Below are positions 51,384 to 58,587 of a stretch of 64,000 nucleotides of DNA, piece by piece. This DNA comes from Bacteroidales bacterium (GTDB lineage Bacteria; Bacteroidota; Bacteroidia; Bacteroidales; UBA932): positions 1 through 64,000 of the forward strand of contig JAFRPW010000033.1 of NCBI GenBank assembly GCA_017428945.1, read 5' to 3'. The position numbers and the translations under genes are program-made. The notes beneath the pieces were generated by a model. That model made no database searches, was not told where the DNA came from, and saw only the letters and a list, made by a program, of their open reading frames with translations. Position 1 is the stretch's first letter; the number at the start of each line of letters is the position of its first letter.

Positions 51384-53588
51384 TTAAAAACTCAGACTGG
51401 TCTTGAACATGAAATTCACAGGCGGCTGAGGATATACTCCCATACCGGAATAAACCGTATCTGAGGCCGGATCGTAGCTCTCCCACCTCCATCCTGAGGC
51501 GTAGTAGAGGTTATTCAAAAGATTATTGACATAGGCAGAAACAGTGAGCACAGACCTGCCTATTTCAAAAGCCTTGCTTGCCGAGAGATTGACCGTCGCA
51601 TAGGCCGGTATTGCCATCTCTTCCCTCATGGAGTTATCCACGAACTGCTTCCCCACATACTTTACATCGGCAGCAATCACGGCTCCTGCACACGGCACAA
51701 CGGACAGTCTTGCCATACCAACCACGGATGGAGACAGAAGCATCGTGGTCTTTCCGTAATGTACGGGATGCGTATCGGAATAGTCCTCGAAAGGCACGTA
51801 AGCGGTATAATCGGCAATCTGGTTAAGGGAGAGGGTGGCGTTGGCATCGGCGGTGAGCCACGGCAGGGCCTTCCAGGAAAGCGAGGCCTCCAGTCCCCTT
51901 CTCCACGCACGGGGCACATTCTCCTTTATCGCGTATCCGGACGATGACAGCCTTCCCGTCTCCAGCAGCATATCCCAGTATTCCATCAGATAGAGGTTGG
52001 AAGTGGCGGAGAAGGCCTTCCCTTCGTAGGACCATCCAAGCTCCAGGTCCAGCATCTTTTCCGGGACGATGTCTGCCCCTTCGCCCTTTATGTTCTCCTT
52101 GATGTCGCCACGTCCGGGTTCGCGGTGACCGAAGGCCAGGGAAAGGTAGGTCTTCCAGGGGCCGGAAGCAACCGTGACGCCGGCACGGGGGTTGAAAAAG
52201 TTCCAGAAGCGGCTGTAGTCAAAAATATCGGCAGGATTTGAACCATACTCAAGCCAGTCGTCGTCCTTTCCGGAAAGCGTGTATTTAACGCCTCTGTACT
52301 GGAGGTCCGCATATGCTGTGAGCCACGCCAGAGGTGAGTACTCGGCCCTTACGAAAGAGCCGATATCGTATTTGAGGCCGTCGGCGCGATACCAGTCGTC
52401 CTGGCCATAACCGGGCTGCTGGTCACCGAATGCCTTTACCCAGAGGACCTCTCCCCAGTGGCCGCCGCGGTGACGGGAGATGTTGACCCCGCCCGTGATA
52501 TTCAGCGCATCGGTCCTGTACCTGAGGTCGGAGTTAAGGACCAAGAGGTCGTTGTCCATGAGCTTGCGGTAAGTGAGGTCGCTCTTTGCCGGAGCGGTAC
52601 CGGAAGGATCGCTTATGCCATAGTTCTTCAGCTTCTTGTTCCGCTTGTAATACTCGTCATAGCCGTCCCCGCGCGTATAGTTGAGCGTGGTAGCCCAGGC
52701 AAGGTTCCCACTTAAGGCACGGGTGTAGTTGAGCTGAAGATGGTGCTGGGCGTAATTGTCCGTCTGGTTGGGATAATAATAGGTATTGCCAAGGTCGTCA
52801 TAGTACTCTCCGGCTCCGTTGTAGGTGCGGTCCTTATTGTATTGTTCCAAGTCTATTCCGTCCCAGGTGATGCCGCTTCGCTGCTTTCCCATAAGGTATG
52901 TAAACCTGAGGGACTGTCCGTTTCCAAGCCACCCAAGAGCCATGAAAGCGCTCTGAGACTGGACGAAGGCATTGCGGATATATCCGTCCGTAGTGCCCCT
53001 GGAATAGGCCACGGAAGCATACAGTCCCTTGTCGCTGAGCCCGGAAGAGCCGGAGACCGTAGATATAAAAGTATCGTACGACCCCATACTCAGCTCGGCT
53101 CTGGCCCAAGGGTCGGGTGAGACGAATGCGGTATTCATGTTGATGCTTGCGCCAAAGGCACCTGCTCCGTTTGCACTGGTTCCAAGGCCTCTCTGAACCT
53201 GGACGCTGGAAATGAGCGCCGTGAGCGAGGGAATGTTCACCCAGAAGACTTCCTGGGACTCGGCATCGTTGAGGGTGATGCCGTTCAGGGTCACATTTAT
53301 CTGTGAGCCTTTGCTGCCGCGGATAGTCATGGCGGAGTTGCCAAGGCCGGTTCCGCCTTCGTTGTACGTAACCACGGACGGCAGCAGGTTCAGCGCCATG
53401 GGCAGCGACGCCTGTGGATCGGCCGCCCTCAGGGCATCCTTGCCGACATTAGTGTAAGTAACCGGGGTTTTCTTGCCCGCCCTTGAAGCGGAAACAACAA
53501 CTGAATCAAGGCGTTCCACTTTTTCCTGCTGCGCGAACGCCAGCGCAGACACGGCAGCGCACGCTGCCACAAGCAATAGTCTTTTCAT
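51384..53588 (-). CDS. TonB-dependent outer-membrane receptor, probably for thiamine
   Basis: A 734-residue receptor with signal peptide (MKRLLLVAACAAVSALAFAQ), a TonB-box-like segment (EKVERLDSVVVSASR), plug domain (about 45-160, with SAMTIRGSKGSQINVTLNGI) and a 22-strand barrel ending in Phe (FMFKTSLSF). It lacks the SusC-type N-terminal carboxypeptidase-like domain and resembles BtuB-like receptors. The TPP riboswitch directly before the start codon indicates that it imports thiamine or a precursor. No other thiamine gene is adjacent. Confidence 0.92.
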   Translation of the reverse strand: MKRLLLVAACAAVSALAFAQQEKVERLDSVVVSASRAGKKTPVTYTNVGKDALRAADPQASLPMALNLLPSVVTYNEGGTGLGNSAMTIRGSKGSQINVTLNGITLNDAESQEVFWVNIPSLTALISSVQVQRGLGTSANGAGAFGASINMNTAFVSPDPWARAELSMGSYDTFISTVSGSSGLSDKGLYASVAYSRGTTDGYIRNAFVQSQSAFMALGWLGNGQSLRFTYLMGKQRSGITWDGIDLEQYNKDRTYNGAGEYYDDLGNTYYYPNQTDNYAQHHLQLNYTRALSGNLAWATTLNYTRGDGYDEYYKRNKKLKNYGISDPSGTAPAKSDLTYRKLMDNDLLVLNSDLRYRTDALNITGGVNISRHRGGHWGEVLWVKAFGDQQPGYGQDDWYRADGLKYDIGSFVRAEYSPLAWLTAYADLQYRGVKYTLSGKDDDWLEYGSNPADIFDYSRFWNFFNPRAGVTVASGPWKTYLSLAFGHREPGRGDIKENIKGEGADIVPEKMLDLELGWSYEGKAFSATSNLYLMEYWDMLLETGRLSSSGYAIKENVPRAWRRGLEASLSWKALPWLTADANATLSLNQIADYTAYVPFEDYSDTHPVHYGKTTMLLSPSVVGMARLSVVPCAGAVIAADVKYVGKQFVDNSMREEMAIPAYATVNLSASKAFEIGRSVLTVSAYVNNLLNNLYYASGWRWESYDPASDTVYSGMGVYPQPPVNFMFKTSLSF

Positions 53589-53589
53589 G

Positions 53590-53662
53590 TTCCTTACGAC
53601 GGTATGAACCGTATCAAGTTATGAGGGTATATTCTCAATCAGGTATTTCCTGATACCCCTGT
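53590..53662 (-). promoter_or_regulatory. TPP (thiamine pyrophosphate) riboswitch
   Basis: On the minus strand the leader reads GGGGTATC, a short arm, CTGATTGAGA, TACCC, then CTTGATACGGTTCATACCGT and CGTAAGGAA. These correspond to the conserved TPP aptamer parts: P2 and the CUGAGA pyrimidine-sensor loop, then the ACCTGATC and GCGTAGGGA pyrophosphate arm. The final AAGGAA is also the only ribosome-binding sequence, immediately before the TonB receptor ATG. Ligand binding would therefore block translation directly. Confidence 0.88.
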
Positions 53663-53665
53663 ATT

Positions 53666-54421
53666 TCATTTCTTCTTTTTTTCTAATTCTATTTTGTACA
53701 ATCTGGGCCAATACTTACCAGTAATATAAATATTGCCTTTATCGTCTGCGGCAATGCCGTTGAGGACGTCTGTGTCGGGCTTTTTCAATTCTTCCGGGAG
53801 GATGCCGGAGCAGTCTATTGTGGCTTCTACCTTGCCTGAGGAGGGATTAATGATGGCAATGATGTCATAGGTGTAGACGTTTGCCCAGATCTTGCCGTCT
53901 ATCCACTCAAGCTCGTTTAGATAGCGGAGGGGGCGGTCTTTAAGGGTGACCCTGAGGCGCTTTGTAACCTTCAGGTCCTTGTCCAGGAAATAGAGCATGG
54001 AACTGCCGTCGCTGGCTATGAGCTGTCGGCCGTCCGTGGTGAGCCCCCAGCCCTCGCGAGGGTAGCCGATGGAGCCTTTGTACTCGAGGGTACGGGCATC
54101 GTAGCGGAAAGCAACCTTGTTTGTCCAGGTGAGGATGTAAAGGTCATCGTCCAGAACTACCGAGCCCTCTCCAAAGTACTTTGAAGACAATTTCTTGGAA
54201 ACGATGGGCTTTCCGGTCTCAAGGTCTACGGTGCGGATGCTGCTCTCTCCCCACTGGCCGGTGGTCTCATAGAGAGTGCCGTCATGGAAGAAAAGCCCCT
54301 GGGTGTATGCACGGACATCGTGCGGGTACTCCCCCACTACCTTTGCCTTGTACTCCTTCACCTGCGCGCTGGAGCATGCAGAAAGGCAGAAGAAGGCAAG
54401 TATGAGCAATCGAAATCGCAT
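53666..54421 (-). CDS. Glutaminyl-peptide cyclotransferase, lipoprotein
   Basis: A beta-propeller glutamine cyclotransferase of the plant/bacterial type, 251 residues, which turns N-terminal Gln of peptides into pyroglutamate. Lipobox LSAC (Cys near 18) puts it in the periplasm. Family segments are YTQGLFFHDGTLYETTGQWG, NELEWIDGKIWANVY and LNGIAADDKGNIYITGKYWP. The frame is open to 54613, but that extension is antisense to RNase P RNA; ATG at 54421 gives the signal peptide and sits eight bases from a -7 box. Confidence 0.9.
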   Translation of the reverse strand: MRFRLLILAFFCLSACSSAQVKEYKAKVVGEYPHDVRAYTQGLFFHDGTLYETTGQWGESSIRTVDLETGKPIVSKKLSSKYFGEGSVVLDDDLYILTWTNKVAFRYDARTLEYKGSIGYPREGWGLTTDGRQLIASDGSSMLYFLDKDLKVTKRLRVTLKDRPLRYLNELEWIDGKIWANVYTYDIIAIINPSSGKVEATIDCSGILPEELKKPDTDVLNGIAADDKGNIYITGKYWPRLYKIELEKKKK

Positions 54422-54428
54422 TATGATA

Positions 54429-54436
54429 CAAAGGTA
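54429..54436 (-). promoter_or_regulatory. -7 box (TACCTTTG) for the cyclotransferase
   Basis: Minus-strand TACCTTTG seven bases before the start codon, divergent from the rnpB promoter 12 bases away. Confidence 0.6.
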
Positions 54437-54448
54437 AGAATTTTTGCG

Positions 54449-54456
54449 TAAATTTG
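54449..54456 (+). promoter_or_regulatory. -7 box (TAAATTTG) for rnpB
   Basis: TAAATTTG ends seven bases before the first paired base of RNase P RNA, the expected distance to the transcript start. Confidence 0.7.
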
Positions 54457-54462
54457 CAGCCA

Positions 54463-54813
54463 CAAAATGGTGGGACGATCTGTCGCGGCGTCGTGTTCCA
54501 GGGCCCCCGTCATATCCGGAACACTTCGCTGAGGAAAGTCCGCACAGGACAGGGCACCCGTCTGCGGAAAGCGCAGCAGGGAGTAATCTTTGGCAAGCGG
54601 TAACAGAAAACAACCGCCCGAAAGGGTAAGGGTGAAAACGCGAGGCAAGAGCTCACGACTGTTTGTGGCAACACACTCAGGGTACCGCCCACGGGCCTGC
54701 AAGACCAAATATACCGGTAGATTCAGGGCTGCCCGCTCTTTGCCGGGGGGTAGGTTGCGAAGATAAATGTCAGATTTAAAAACAGAAAGCGGCTTACGGC
54801 CCCACCATTTTTT
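54463..54813 (+). ncRNA. rnpB: RNase P RNA
   Basis: The catalytic RNA that matures tRNA 5' ends. The universal core GAGGAAAGTCCG is at 54531-54542; ACAGAAA, the GGCAAGAGCTCACG segment (about 54640) and the 3' AACAGAAAGCGGCTTAC (54781-54797) are also present, as in bacterial type A RNAs. P1 closes by pairing AAAATGGTGGG at the start with CCCACCATTTT at the end. A T run (CCATTTTTTATA) ends transcription. Its length of about 350 bases is normal. Confidence 0.95.
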
Positions 54814-54827
54814 ATAACACCCACTAA

Positions 54828-54928
54828 ATGTAAAAGGTTCGGTTTTTTATGCCGAACCTTTTACATCATATAGCCTACAGGGCGGTTTTATGTAAATGGT
54901 TCGGTCATTTTTTCCGAACCTTTTACAT
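54828..54928 (+). repeat. Double-hairpin repeat, copy 1 (101 bases)
   Basis: Two hairpins, each AAAAGGTTCGG or AAATGGTTCGG against CCGAACCTTTT, joined by TATAGCCTACAGGGCGG. It lies between the 3' ends of rnpB and pgi. The reverse complement of the block at 58485-58585 differs at only about seven positions by eye. It can serve as a bidirectional terminator. Confidence 0.9.
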
Positions 54929-54936
54929 TTGCGGCC

Positions 54937-56320: not shown

Positions 56321-57391
56321 TCATTTTTTGGATTCATTGGCACAGAGAGTCTTGTGATAATGGCACTGGAGCAGTTCTGCGTGCTCTCCGTGATGGTTGT
56401 GCATGCCGTTGCCAAGGCAGTTCTTCCACTCCTTACACTCCGCGCAGATGCCTGTCCGAGCCCAGCTGCGGTCACGGAAAGGCTGGAAACGTTTTTCCCA
56501 GACCTCGTAGAAATTGTCCTGATAGATATTCCCCTGTGAGAACCTGTCCCTGTCTATGTTGGGGCAGGCGCATATTCTGCCGTCGATGAGAATTGATGCG
56601 ATGTTCACTCCCGCATGGCAGAAAAACCGCACCTGGCGCACCTTCTCCTCATACTTGCCAAGGTATCCTTCGCAGCTGAAAGTAACGGTCATGGGACCGC
56701 CCTGCTCACGTTTGGCCTTTATGAATTCCATCAGCGTAACAAACTCCTGGTCTAGAAGATGCATGTCCGGATCAGATGCCGCGCGGCCAATGGGAATAAT
56801 TGTGAAAAGGCGCCACTGCTTTACTCCCATCCCGGAAAGTAGGCTGTAGATGCTTTCCAGCTGGGAAAGGTTGCGTTTGTTCACGCAGGTGACAACATCG
56901 TAAAGAAGACGGGGATCGGCAGCAATGATGCCGATGGCCCTGACCGCCCTACGGAAGCTCCCGGGAATGCCGCGCATCCAGTCGTGGCTGTCTTCAAGGC
57001 CGTCCAGGCTAACCGTAACGGCCCCCATTCCCGCTTCCATAAGCTTCCTGTGCATGGCCTCATCGTAAAACCAGCCGTTTGTTACCATGCCCCAGCTGAA
57101 TCCGCGGCGGAGTATCTCACGTCCGGCCTCAGCGATGTCCGGCCTCATGAGGGGTTCTCCGCCGGTGAGGACCACGTTGAAATCTCCCGGCTTTTTCACT
57201 TTGGGAATGGTGTCAAGGGCCCGCAGGAAGTCCTCCAGCGGCATGTCCTTTTCCTTTACTGCCATTCCGCAGTCGCTCCCGCAGTGGCGGCAGCGGAAAT
57301 TACAGCGTGTGGTGCATTCCCAGAAGAGGTAATTCAGTTCGTGGACTTTGGTTTCATAGTCCCTGAACATGCGGAACAGCAGAGGATTCAT
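56321..57391 (-). CDS. Radical SAM/SPASM enzyme of the rSAM/lipoprotein system (TIGR04133-like)
   Basis: A 356-residue radical S-adenosylmethionine enzyme. The [4Fe-4S] motif CNFRCRHC is at residues 30-37; a GGEPLMRPD block follows near 77. The C-terminal part has the clustered cysteines of a SPASM domain (CACPNID, ICAECKEWKNC, LLQCHYHK), which binds extra iron-sulfur clusters in peptide-modifying enzymes. The neighbour on the opposite strand encodes the lipoprotein of the same two-gene system known from Bacteroidota. Substrate and reaction are unknown; modification of the lipoprotein is an inference. Confidence 0.85.
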   Translation of the reverse strand: MNPLLFRMFRDYETKVHELNYLFWECTTRCNFRCRHCGSDCGMAVKEKDMPLEDFLRALDTIPKVKKPGDFNVVLTGGEPLMRPDIAEAGREILRRGFSWGMVTNGWFYDEAMHRKLMEAGMGAVTVSLDGLEDSHDWMRGIPGSFRRAVRAIGIIAADPRLLYDVVTCVNKRNLSQLESIYSLLSGMGVKQWRLFTIIPIGRAASDPDMHLLDQEFVTLMEFIKAKREQGGPMTVTFSCEGYLGKYEEKVRQVRFFCHAGVNIASILIDGRICACPNIDRDRFSQGNIYQDNFYEVWEKRFQPFRDRSWARTGICAECKEWKNCLGNGMHNHHGEHAELLQCHYHKTLCANESKK

Positions 57392-57401
57392 TATTTTTTT
57401 C

Positions 57402-57409
57402 TATTTTTG
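57402..57409 (+). promoter_or_regulatory. -7 box (TATTTTTG) for the lipoprotein gene
   Basis: TATTTTTG in the 64-base gap between the divergent radical SAM and lipoprotein genes, 46 bases before the latter's start. Confidence 0.6.
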
Positions 57410-57455
57410 TGCAAGATAATAAAAAAAAGGGATTCTAAAGGTAAAAGTCACGGCT

Positions 57456-57842
57456 ATGAAATTCTTGCATAACATTCTCAAAGGCATTTCGCTCACTGGC
57501 GTCCTGTTTGTCTTTCAAGCCTGCTACGGAGAGCCGTACGACCCTCTCCTTCGTGAAGGCGGAATGGCGCCAATGTCTTTTACCCTTGTCTCTCACGCAG
57601 ACGGCAAGCCCATCGAGGGCGTAAAAATCTCTGCAAGTGCCTGGAAGACAGATGACGGCAAGCAGGTTATCGGCACCACCGGCGCCGACGGCAAATGCAC
57701 CGTTAACATCCCTTACCTCAGGAACAACGAAGGCCCGTACATCCGTTTTGAGGACCAGGACAAGAAATTCGCCGTAAAGGACACCACCCTTGCAGACCTC
57801 AGGGAACGCGATATCCTGGTGAAAATGGACCCCAAGTTATGA
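57456..57842 (+). CDS. Radical SAM-associated putative lipoprotein (TIGR04134-like)
   Basis: A 128-residue exported protein. An N-terminal hydrophobic segment ends at VFQAC (Cys23), and CYGEPYDP follows, the Cys-Tyr-Gly-x-Pro block that marks these lipoproteins. The rest resembles a small carboxypeptidase-regulatory-like beta domain (FTLVSHADGKPIEGVKISAS), possibly the modified substrate. The gene is divergent from the radical SAM gene and coupled by ATGA to the next gene. Confidence 0.78.
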   Translation: MKFLHNILKGISLTGVLFVFQACYGEPYDPLLREGGMAPMSFTLVSHADGKPIEGVKISASAWKTDDGKQVIGTTGADGKCTVNIPYLRNNEGPYIRFEDQDKKFAVKDTTLADLRERDILVKMDPKL

Positions 57843-58474
57843 GAGCGCGTTTTCTGATTATAACCTGCCTGTGCCTTGCATCTGCCTTTTCTGCCGGCGC
57901 CCAGCAGGAGCAGTCGGCATATCCTCAGTTCCAGAAGTCATATTCCATAGAACTGGGCACCGGTATCCAGCCTTTTTATATGAATTCATGGACCGCTCCC
58001 TCCGGTTTGGTAAAGGACAGATTAGCCGCCAAAGGCCAGAGACCTGCATCGCCTTATTATTATCCTGTGCTAAGTCTTACGGGAGTCATGAGAATATCCC
58101 GCAGGAGCGAGCACATCCTTACTTTTGGCTCTACATGGTGTCATCATCAGGTGATGCAGTATGCAGAGTCCGGGGGAGTTGACCCAGAGGGTAAGCCTCG
58201 TTACAATACAGCAGAGAAGGGTACGCTTGTGGGCTGGATGGACTCGTCACCGCAATTCTCCCTTACCTGGCAGTGGCGTCACCTCTGGACTCCCGAAAGG
58301 AAAGTGGTCCTTTATACCGGAGTGGGCCTGGGGCTATGTATGGAGTTCGTACCCATTCCTGACGTGACGCCTGTCGGACTGCGTTTTGGCGGAACTCACC
58401 TTTACGGCTTTGCAGAACTCACATTAGGCCCTGTTGCCACTCTGGCCCACGGAGGGCTGGGATGGCGGTTCTGA
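57839..58474 (+). CDS. Hypothetical exported protein, likely small outer-membrane barrel
   Basis: A 211-residue protein of unknown function, not recognised as a named family. It has a signal peptide (MRARFLIITCLCLASAFSAGA), then alternating amphipathic strands (SYSIELGTGIQPFY, VVLYTGVGLGLCMEF, LYGFAELTLGPVA), and ends GGLGWRF with a C-terminal aromatic residue, as barrel proteins do. An ATGA overlap couples it to the lipoprotein gene, so it may be a third member of the radical SAM locus. It ends 10 bases before the copy 2 repeat. Confidence 0.7.
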   Translation: MRARFLIITCLCLASAFSAGAQQEQSAYPQFQKSYSIELGTGIQPFYMNSWTAPSGLVKDRLAAKGQRPASPYYYPVLSLTGVMRISRRSEHILTFGSTWCHHQVMQYAESGGVDPEGKPRYNTAEKGTLVGWMDSSPQFSLTWQWRHLWTPERKVVLYTGVGLGLCMEFVPIPDVTPVGLRFGGTHLYGFAELTLGPVATLAHGGLGWRF

Positions 58475-58484
58475 AGTCCTATCA

Positions 58485-58585
58485 ATGTGAAAGGTTCGGA
58501 AAAAATGACCGAACCTTTTACATAAAACGGCACTGTAGGCCATATAACGTAAAAGGTTCGGCATAAAAAACCGAACCTTTTACAT
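58485..58585 (-). repeat. Double-hairpin repeat, copy 2 (101 bases, inverted relative to copy 1)
   Basis: Same two hairpins as 54828-54928 in reverse orientation and of identical length. It lies between the convergent 3' ends of the barrel-like gene and recX and probably terminates both. Confidence 0.9.
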
Positions 58586-58587
58586 TT

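Follow-up and report, generated by a model that had tools for sequence, protein, structure and literature searches.

Gene organization of the locus

The window analyzed here is a stretch of 64,000 nucleotides (positions 1 to 64,000 of the forward strand) of contig JAFRPW010000033.1, assembly GCA_017428945.1, from a Bacteroidales bacterium (UBA932; gut bacterium). It contains an enzyme gene and a lipoprotein gene that are divergent and separated by 64 bp, followed by a third gene.

54826..54929, no strand assigned: dispersed double-hairpin repeat, left copy; outside the system
56321..57391, minus strand: radical SAM/SPASM enzyme gene (356 aa), TIGR04133, from the branch in which Tyr-Gly stands at the partner's lipobox Cys
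57456..57842, plus strand: prolipoprotein gene (128 aa), proposed substrate; leader MKFLHNILKGISLTGVLFVFQA, lipobox Cys23, then C-Y-G-E-P
57456..57842, plus strand (same gene): domain after the motif, transthyretin/CarboxypepD-reg-like (profile matches at E of about 1e-3)
57522..57536, plus strand: codons of Cys-Tyr-Gly-Glu-Pro (residues 23 to 27), proposed modification site
57839..58474, plus strand: third gene (211 aa), exported, probable small outer-membrane beta-barrel
57839..57842, plus strand: ATGA start/stop overlap of the lipoprotein gene and the third gene, read from the sequence
58484..58587, no strand assigned: right copy of the dispersed double-hairpin repeat, in inverted orientation to the left one; outside the system

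All three open reading frames named in a preliminary description of this DNA are present, and its other readings could be reproduced as well: CNFRCRHC and a Cys-rich C terminus in the radical SAM protein, a CYGxPY block in the lipoprotein (read as VFQA-C-YGEPY), and a third gene joined to the lipoprotein gene by ATGA. The same description placed the unit, together with pgi, between inverted 101-base repeats. The two repeats do enclose pgi and the three genes and are 93% complementary, but they do not form a boundary; each arm holds two hairpins, and this hairpin family is dispersed genome-wide, so that the repeats were rejected as the ends of an element. The half-site has 86 copies in the genome (at most one mismatch) compared with 3 for the pattern read backwards, the perfect hairpin has 19 copies in the source genome and none in 20 relatives, and the single-strand folding z values of the two copies are –10.9 and –8.8. 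Their inverted arrangement here is probably a coincidence. Four borderline Y1-type transposase matches are also found in the source genome.

Two structured RNAs lie further to the left. RNase P RNA class A occupies positions 54467 to 54812 of the plus strand (179.8 bits), and the open reading frame at 53666 to 54613 has a long N-terminal extension overlapping it, which is probably spurious. A TPP riboswitch (53574 to 53670, 62.9 bits) is located at the start of the gene at 51384 to 53588 on the minus strand; its 734-aa product is outer-membrane receptor-like and perhaps takes part in thiamine-related uptake.

Family assignment of the enzyme and the lipoprotein

The enzyme scores 479.4 bits against TIGR04133 (E = 5.7e-144; curated cut-off, 425), and it matches PF04055 (Radical_SAM, 76.3 bits) and PF13186 (SPASM, 32.6 bits), both above cut-off. 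Among 137 homologues, C30, C34, and C37 are kept in 135 or 136, and C41 and C240 in all. TIGR04133 enzymes do not have the usual last Cys of the CxxCx5CxxxC block, which reads CxxCx5CxGNG in the window's enzyme. Besides the window's enzyme, the source genome encodes one more that belongs to TIGR04133 (556 bits); it lies on a different contig, is flanked by two lipoproteins passing TIGR04134 (92.0 and 75.9 bits), and represents a classical pair. In the window's order, 86 of 393 sampled genomes have TIGR04133 above cut-off.

The preliminary description had assigned enzyme and lipoprotein to the TIGR04133/TIGR04134 system. The model search bore this out for the enzyme, and the lipoprotein is homologous, but the latter failed TIGR04134 itself (17.6 bits, E = 0.003; curated cut-off, 39.8). 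It adjoins the TIGR04133 gene and bears Tyr-Gly-x-Pro as CYGEPY (lipobox by eye), and its profile matches are transthyretin-like proteins and SusC-type chains (E of about 1e-3). The source genome has one close homologue of it (166.8 bits; next, 21.2), which adjoins the enzyme. The lipoprotein is a divergent relative and a distinct second substrate type, with Tyr-Gly right at the lipobox Cys.

TIGR04133 and TIGR04134 are listed in NCBIfam as hypoth_equivalog. The window's pair shares with them an enzyme that passes TIGR04133 and a partner lipoprotein with Tyr-Gly-x-Pro; it differs in that the partner falls below TIGR04134, that Tyr-Gly stands at the lipobox Cys and not mostly 6 to 16 residues on as in the classical pair, and that there are an F-x-F-Q-A-C leader and an additional outer-membrane gene. 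The window's system is thus a well-delimited branch of a known, uncharacterized pair. A full-text search by family and product names returned no paper on the pair (its scope did not extend to the articles by Scott in 2022, Morinaka in 2018, or Haft and Basu in 2011), and among the titles listed by a broader literature search none concerns TIGR04133 with a lipoprotein; the word "lipoprotein" does not occur in the accessible portion of PMC10352776.

A conserved Tyr-Gly motif and two types of pair

A survey of 199 genomes of the family yielded 110 TIGR04133 matches at E values up to 1e-80. Of these, 72 reach at least 510 bits, 35 (the window's included) lie at 431 to 480 bits, and 3 are under the cut-off. 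We inspected all 35 lower-band and 30 upper-band loci, together with 43 stretches with lower-scoring matches and 17 with stronger ones from the search of the order. From 137 different enzymes we computed a tree by a quick method with SH-aLRT as its sole support measure (one fragment was left out), and the surroundings of each enzyme were searched for a predicted lipobox Cys followed by Tyr-Gly at most 25 residues on; lipobox and signal peptide were assigned from the sequence by our own rules, and the tally gave preference to YGxP and to the first Tyr-Gly.

The automatic search found such a lipoprotein near 122 of the 137 enzymes. One pick is wrong (L059, at a contig end, where the residue X before Tyr-Gly is D), leaving 121, and two more Tyr-Gly lipoproteins, missed by the filter owing to Glu at –2, were recognized by eye (L083 and L088). 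Seven of the other 13 enzymes have less than 1.6 kb upstream; at the remaining six (L064, L068, L100, L106, L143, and L155), where the flanks are ample, no Tyr-Gly lipoprotein was found. YGxP after a predicted lipobox Cys occurs near 114 of the 137 enzymes, compared with 2 for the control pattern GYxP, 0 for PGxY, 1 for FGxP, 0 for YSxP, 1 for YAxP, and 7 for AGxP; plain YG gives 122 and eight other residue pairs give 3 to 41. The Pro is not absolute, being present in 63 of 70 partners picked by the text ACYG. Tyr-Gly is the conserved core of the motif, beyond chance.

Over the 122 picks, Tyr comes 1 residue after the Cys in 75, 2 to 4 residues after it in four, 6 to 16 in 42, and 20 in one. 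The residue X is Cys in 75 picks, Glu in 28, Met in 9, Ala in 6, and Lys in 3, and in the wrong pick it is Asp. When partners are labeled near or far with a cut at 4 residues, the label needs 2 changes on the 137-enzyme tree; the classical type, with Tyr-Gly mostly 6 to 16 residues on, is a separate enzyme clade. Position 280 of the enzyme tracks the type of pair: the window's enzyme has Asp280, and 50 of the 52 rows in its clade carry Asp at this site. Among the 44 rows that were scored far, 43 have Arg there, and the sole exception (L088) is a mis-scored member of the window's clade.

Outside Bacteroidota, the pair is also found in Treponema saccharophilum, on a plasmid of 424 kb (L161:2598-4074); the partner lipoprotein there carries CYGMP and, with 43.7 bits, passes TIGR04134.

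Leader conservation and minimal partners

The partners picked by the text ACYG allow leader and mature parts to be compared; A, C, Y, and G of this set are demanded by the search text itself. In the 61 full-length ones, mean identity is 46% in the signal peptide versus 29% in the mature domain, and in the 13 lipoproteins of the subclade with the third gene it is 70% versus 51%; the third protein shows no such leader excess (43% versus 46% in 15 sequences). Phe is found at –5 in 67 of 70 partners and at –3 in 59, and Gln at –2 in 63, in a column that the search text restricts to Q, E, T, or M. Nine of the 70 are minimal, consisting of the leader, CYGTP, and a short acidic tail without a folded domain, and measure 45 to 54 residues counted from the Cys. 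The common part of the partners is the leader plus Cys-Tyr-Gly. Given that conservation is higher in the leader than in the mature part and that nine partners are minimal, leader and X-Tyr-Gly are likely the substrate.

The third gene

The third protein has a signal-like N terminus and ends in HGGLGWRF; in 15 homologues GGLG is invariant and W and F are kept in at least 90%. By eye, H-G-G-L-G-W-R-F fits the beta-signal pattern of barrels, polar-x-Gly-x-x-aromatic-x-aromatic. Searches of NCBIfam and Pfam at E up to 1 gave no hit for the protein, and a PDB search with its profile gave no match; OMP_b-brl reaches E = 0.25 in one of the 15 homologues and 0.0056 in one of four distant ones, below its cut-off. 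The signal-like N terminus and the C-terminal pattern make it a probable small, exported outer-membrane beta-barrel, in agreement with the exported, barrel-like character first ascribed to it.

In all 15 named loci with close homologues, the third gene lies directly 3' of the lipoprotein gene; with the start codons chosen, the two overlap by 1 to 4 bases in 13 loci and are 2 to 4 bases apart in two. The enzyme is adjacent in 14, and the remaining locus ends at a contig edge. Ten of these loci are divergent, four run enzyme, lipoprotein, and third gene on one strand, and one lies at the contig end, so the divergence stressed in the preliminary description holds as a layout but not as a special feature. 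A profile of nine homologues, run against 198 family genomes, gave 11 strong matches (242 to 346 bits; a set overlapping the 15 named loci), every one directly 3' of a lipoprotein of the window's type. As a general partner of TIGR04133, however, the third gene was rejected: it adjoins 9 of the 35 lower-band enzymes and is absent beside 26. A survey of its homologues, suggested at the outset, thus spoke against an association with the family at large and for one within its own subclade, where the gene is nearly constant. It needs 3 changes on the 137-enzyme tree, all around one subclade of 18 rows (SH-aLRT 89), which fits about one gain with losses in L046 and L053; L070, the sister of L053, ends at a contig edge.

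This distribution leaves two readings. The third gene might encode an unrelated outer-membrane protein that merely shares a transcript, which we regard as rather unlikely; the 26 lower-band loci without it, the two losses within the subclade, and the lack of an enzyme or lipoprotein beside the 8 best of 37 weaker matches (46 to 90 bits) point that way, whereas the position directly 3' of the lipoprotein gene at every one of the 15 named loci, overlapping in 13, and the persistence of both genes together at L089 and L090, where the contig holds no enzyme, argue against it. A joint function of lipoprotein and barrel at the outer membrane, which we infer from the observed linkage, appears reasonably probable.

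In genome G102, the lipoprotein and the third gene share one short contig (L090:1554-2584) and the TIGR04133 enzyme lies on another (L064), where no nearby partner was found; this enzyme possibly acts in trans.

Resemblance to splicease cores

The family IPR026482 of PlpX corresponds to TIGR04103. PMC11002830 describes PlpX as a SPASM enzyme belonging to IPR026482 and working with the RRE protein PlpY, and PMC10533398 describes PlpXY as removing a tyramine equivalent at XYG, with MYG and LYG as natural sites and with GPIRPLYGLPI among the tags tried, which was unsuccessful in FtsZ. A Nostoc plasmid enzyme passing TIGR04103 (853 bits; about 48% identical to TIGR03913) adjoins a nif11 precursor whose core ends in ALYGLPPELF, thus X-Y-G-x-P. 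A Bacteroidales SPASM enzyme of intermediate score (L171:1468-3599; 218 bits to TIGR04103 and 178 bits to TIGR04133) adjoins a protein of 214 aa in which KYGYPC occurs five times and a sixth repeat, KYGYPG, lies close to the C terminus; this protein has no NCBIfam match at E up to 0.001 and looks like a multicore precursor with X-Tyr-Gly. Among 11 TIGR04103-like loci (L167 to L177, 1.5-kb flanks), a clear X-Tyr-Gly peptide is found at L167 and L171 only; L169 has YGTPP in a neighboring protein whose homologue in L168 does not have it, and the Agathobacter TIGR04103-like enzyme has no X-Tyr-Gly peptide alongside. In Tropicibacter (L165:1206-2177), a TIGR04103-like enzyme adjoins a protein annotated as phosphotransferase, the N-terminal part of which contains DFYGLPPG, recalling the Nostoc core YGLPP.

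Compared with PlpX/PlpY (nif11-class maturase 3, TIGR04103), the window's system likewise combines a SPASM enzyme with X-Tyr-Gly in an adjoining precursor (also Y-G-L-P in the former, Cys-Tyr-Gly-Glu-Pro here); the former has a Nif11-type leader, an RRE partner, and the full CxxCx5CxxxC block, whereas the window's precursor has a Sec signal peptide and the enzymes are distantly related (135 bits to TIGR04103, short of its curated cut-off of 725). No RRE protein was noticed beside the window's enzyme. The GDL-motif maturase TIGR03913 with its DUF1843 peptides is similar in that 4 of 7 neighboring peptides carry PYG or LYG near their start, but 2 of 7 carry Tyr-Ala and 1 neither, and those precursors are small and soluble. 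A 38-enzyme tree unites TIGR04133 with the TIGR04103/TIGR03913 group and four additional enzymes before the other SPASM enzymes (86/83); in it the joining branch is unstarred, the TIGR04133 stem is long (1.79), as are some other branches, and few other families are included. The NirJ2, AhbD, MftC, and TIGR04053 models score on TIGR04133 enzymes much like TIGR04103; because several SPASM families score alike, splicease chemistry was rejected as a conclusion from enzyme similarity alone, and the argument rests on the motif.

Proposed maturation and alternative readings

We propose that the lipoprotein is matured in a RiPP-like way before it is exported. The TIGR04133 enzyme would act in the cytoplasm, recognizing the prolipoprotein through its signal peptide serving as leader and excising tyramine at X-Tyr-Gly as PlpX-type spliceases do (loss of C8H9NO, –135.0757 Da), with the lipobox Cys in the place of X; processing by Sec, Lgt, and LspA would afterwards yield a lipoprotein with an electrophilic ketoamide on the anchoring residue. 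In the subclade with the third gene, this lipoprotein would work at the outer membrane with the small barrel from the overlapping gene. That the enzyme reads the signal peptide as leader and modifies Tyr-Gly after the lipobox Cys seems very probable from sequence conservation, and the modification site is well supported; the reaction we infer from the motif, tyramine excision being, by analogy, the most likely though unproven one. An altered lipobox Cys might hamper Lgt or LspA, a point against excision. Also counting against the proposal are the missing last Cys of the CxxCx5CxxxC block, the reliance of PlpX on an RRE protein, the small number of TIGR04103-like loci with a clear X-Tyr-Gly peptide, and the six amply flanked loci with no Tyr-Gly lipoprotein found. 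Taken as a whole, the proposal is tentative and stands somewhat below an even chance.

The main competitor keeps substrate and site and changes the chemistry: Tyr or Gly would be altered by epimerization, oxidation, or a Tyr cross-link, and the tyramine would stay. Many peptide reactions are known from SPASM enzymes; the comparable scores of several families besides TIGR04103 and a conserved core of just Tyr-Gly suit this reading, and we regard it as a serious possibility that nevertheless falls clearly short of even. Against it, the form X-Y-G-x-P agrees with cores that splicease-type enzymes process or have as genomic neighbors, and an enzyme of intermediate score adjoins the KYGYPC repeats. 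A three-residue, triceptide-like cyclophane from Tyr to the residue two on (Tyr-Gly-X3) is a known chemistry and would suit an aromatic-X-X motif with a SPASM enzyme; X3 varies, however, and is disfavored as a cross-link partner because it may be Gly (CYGGP in L034 to L036), which has no beta carbon, or Pro (CYGPV in L050), making this product very improbable. That the enzyme leaves the lipoprotein unmodified and both serve another shared process is also improbable, if a little less so: the six loci with ample flanks and no detectable Tyr-Gly partner would be expected under it, but leader and motif are retained in partners that otherwise share nothing, Tyr-Gly lipoproteins accompany 121 of 137 enzymes plus two by eye, and the pair is present on the Treponema plasmid too.

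Maturation by tyramine excision has an exact expected mass because of the splicease parallel, and with the conserved substrate shrunk to a leader and Tyr-Gly, and natural partners of 45 to 54 residues from the Cys, the chemistry is directly testable. The linked barrel gene, in turn, is a handle on function. To our knowledge, no such backbone reaction has been described at lipoprotein lipid anchors; if the proposal is true, protein backbones would be edited precisely there, and a backbone-edited lipid anchor, a prospect we consider doubtful at present, would be widespread among the lipoproteins of Bacteroidales.
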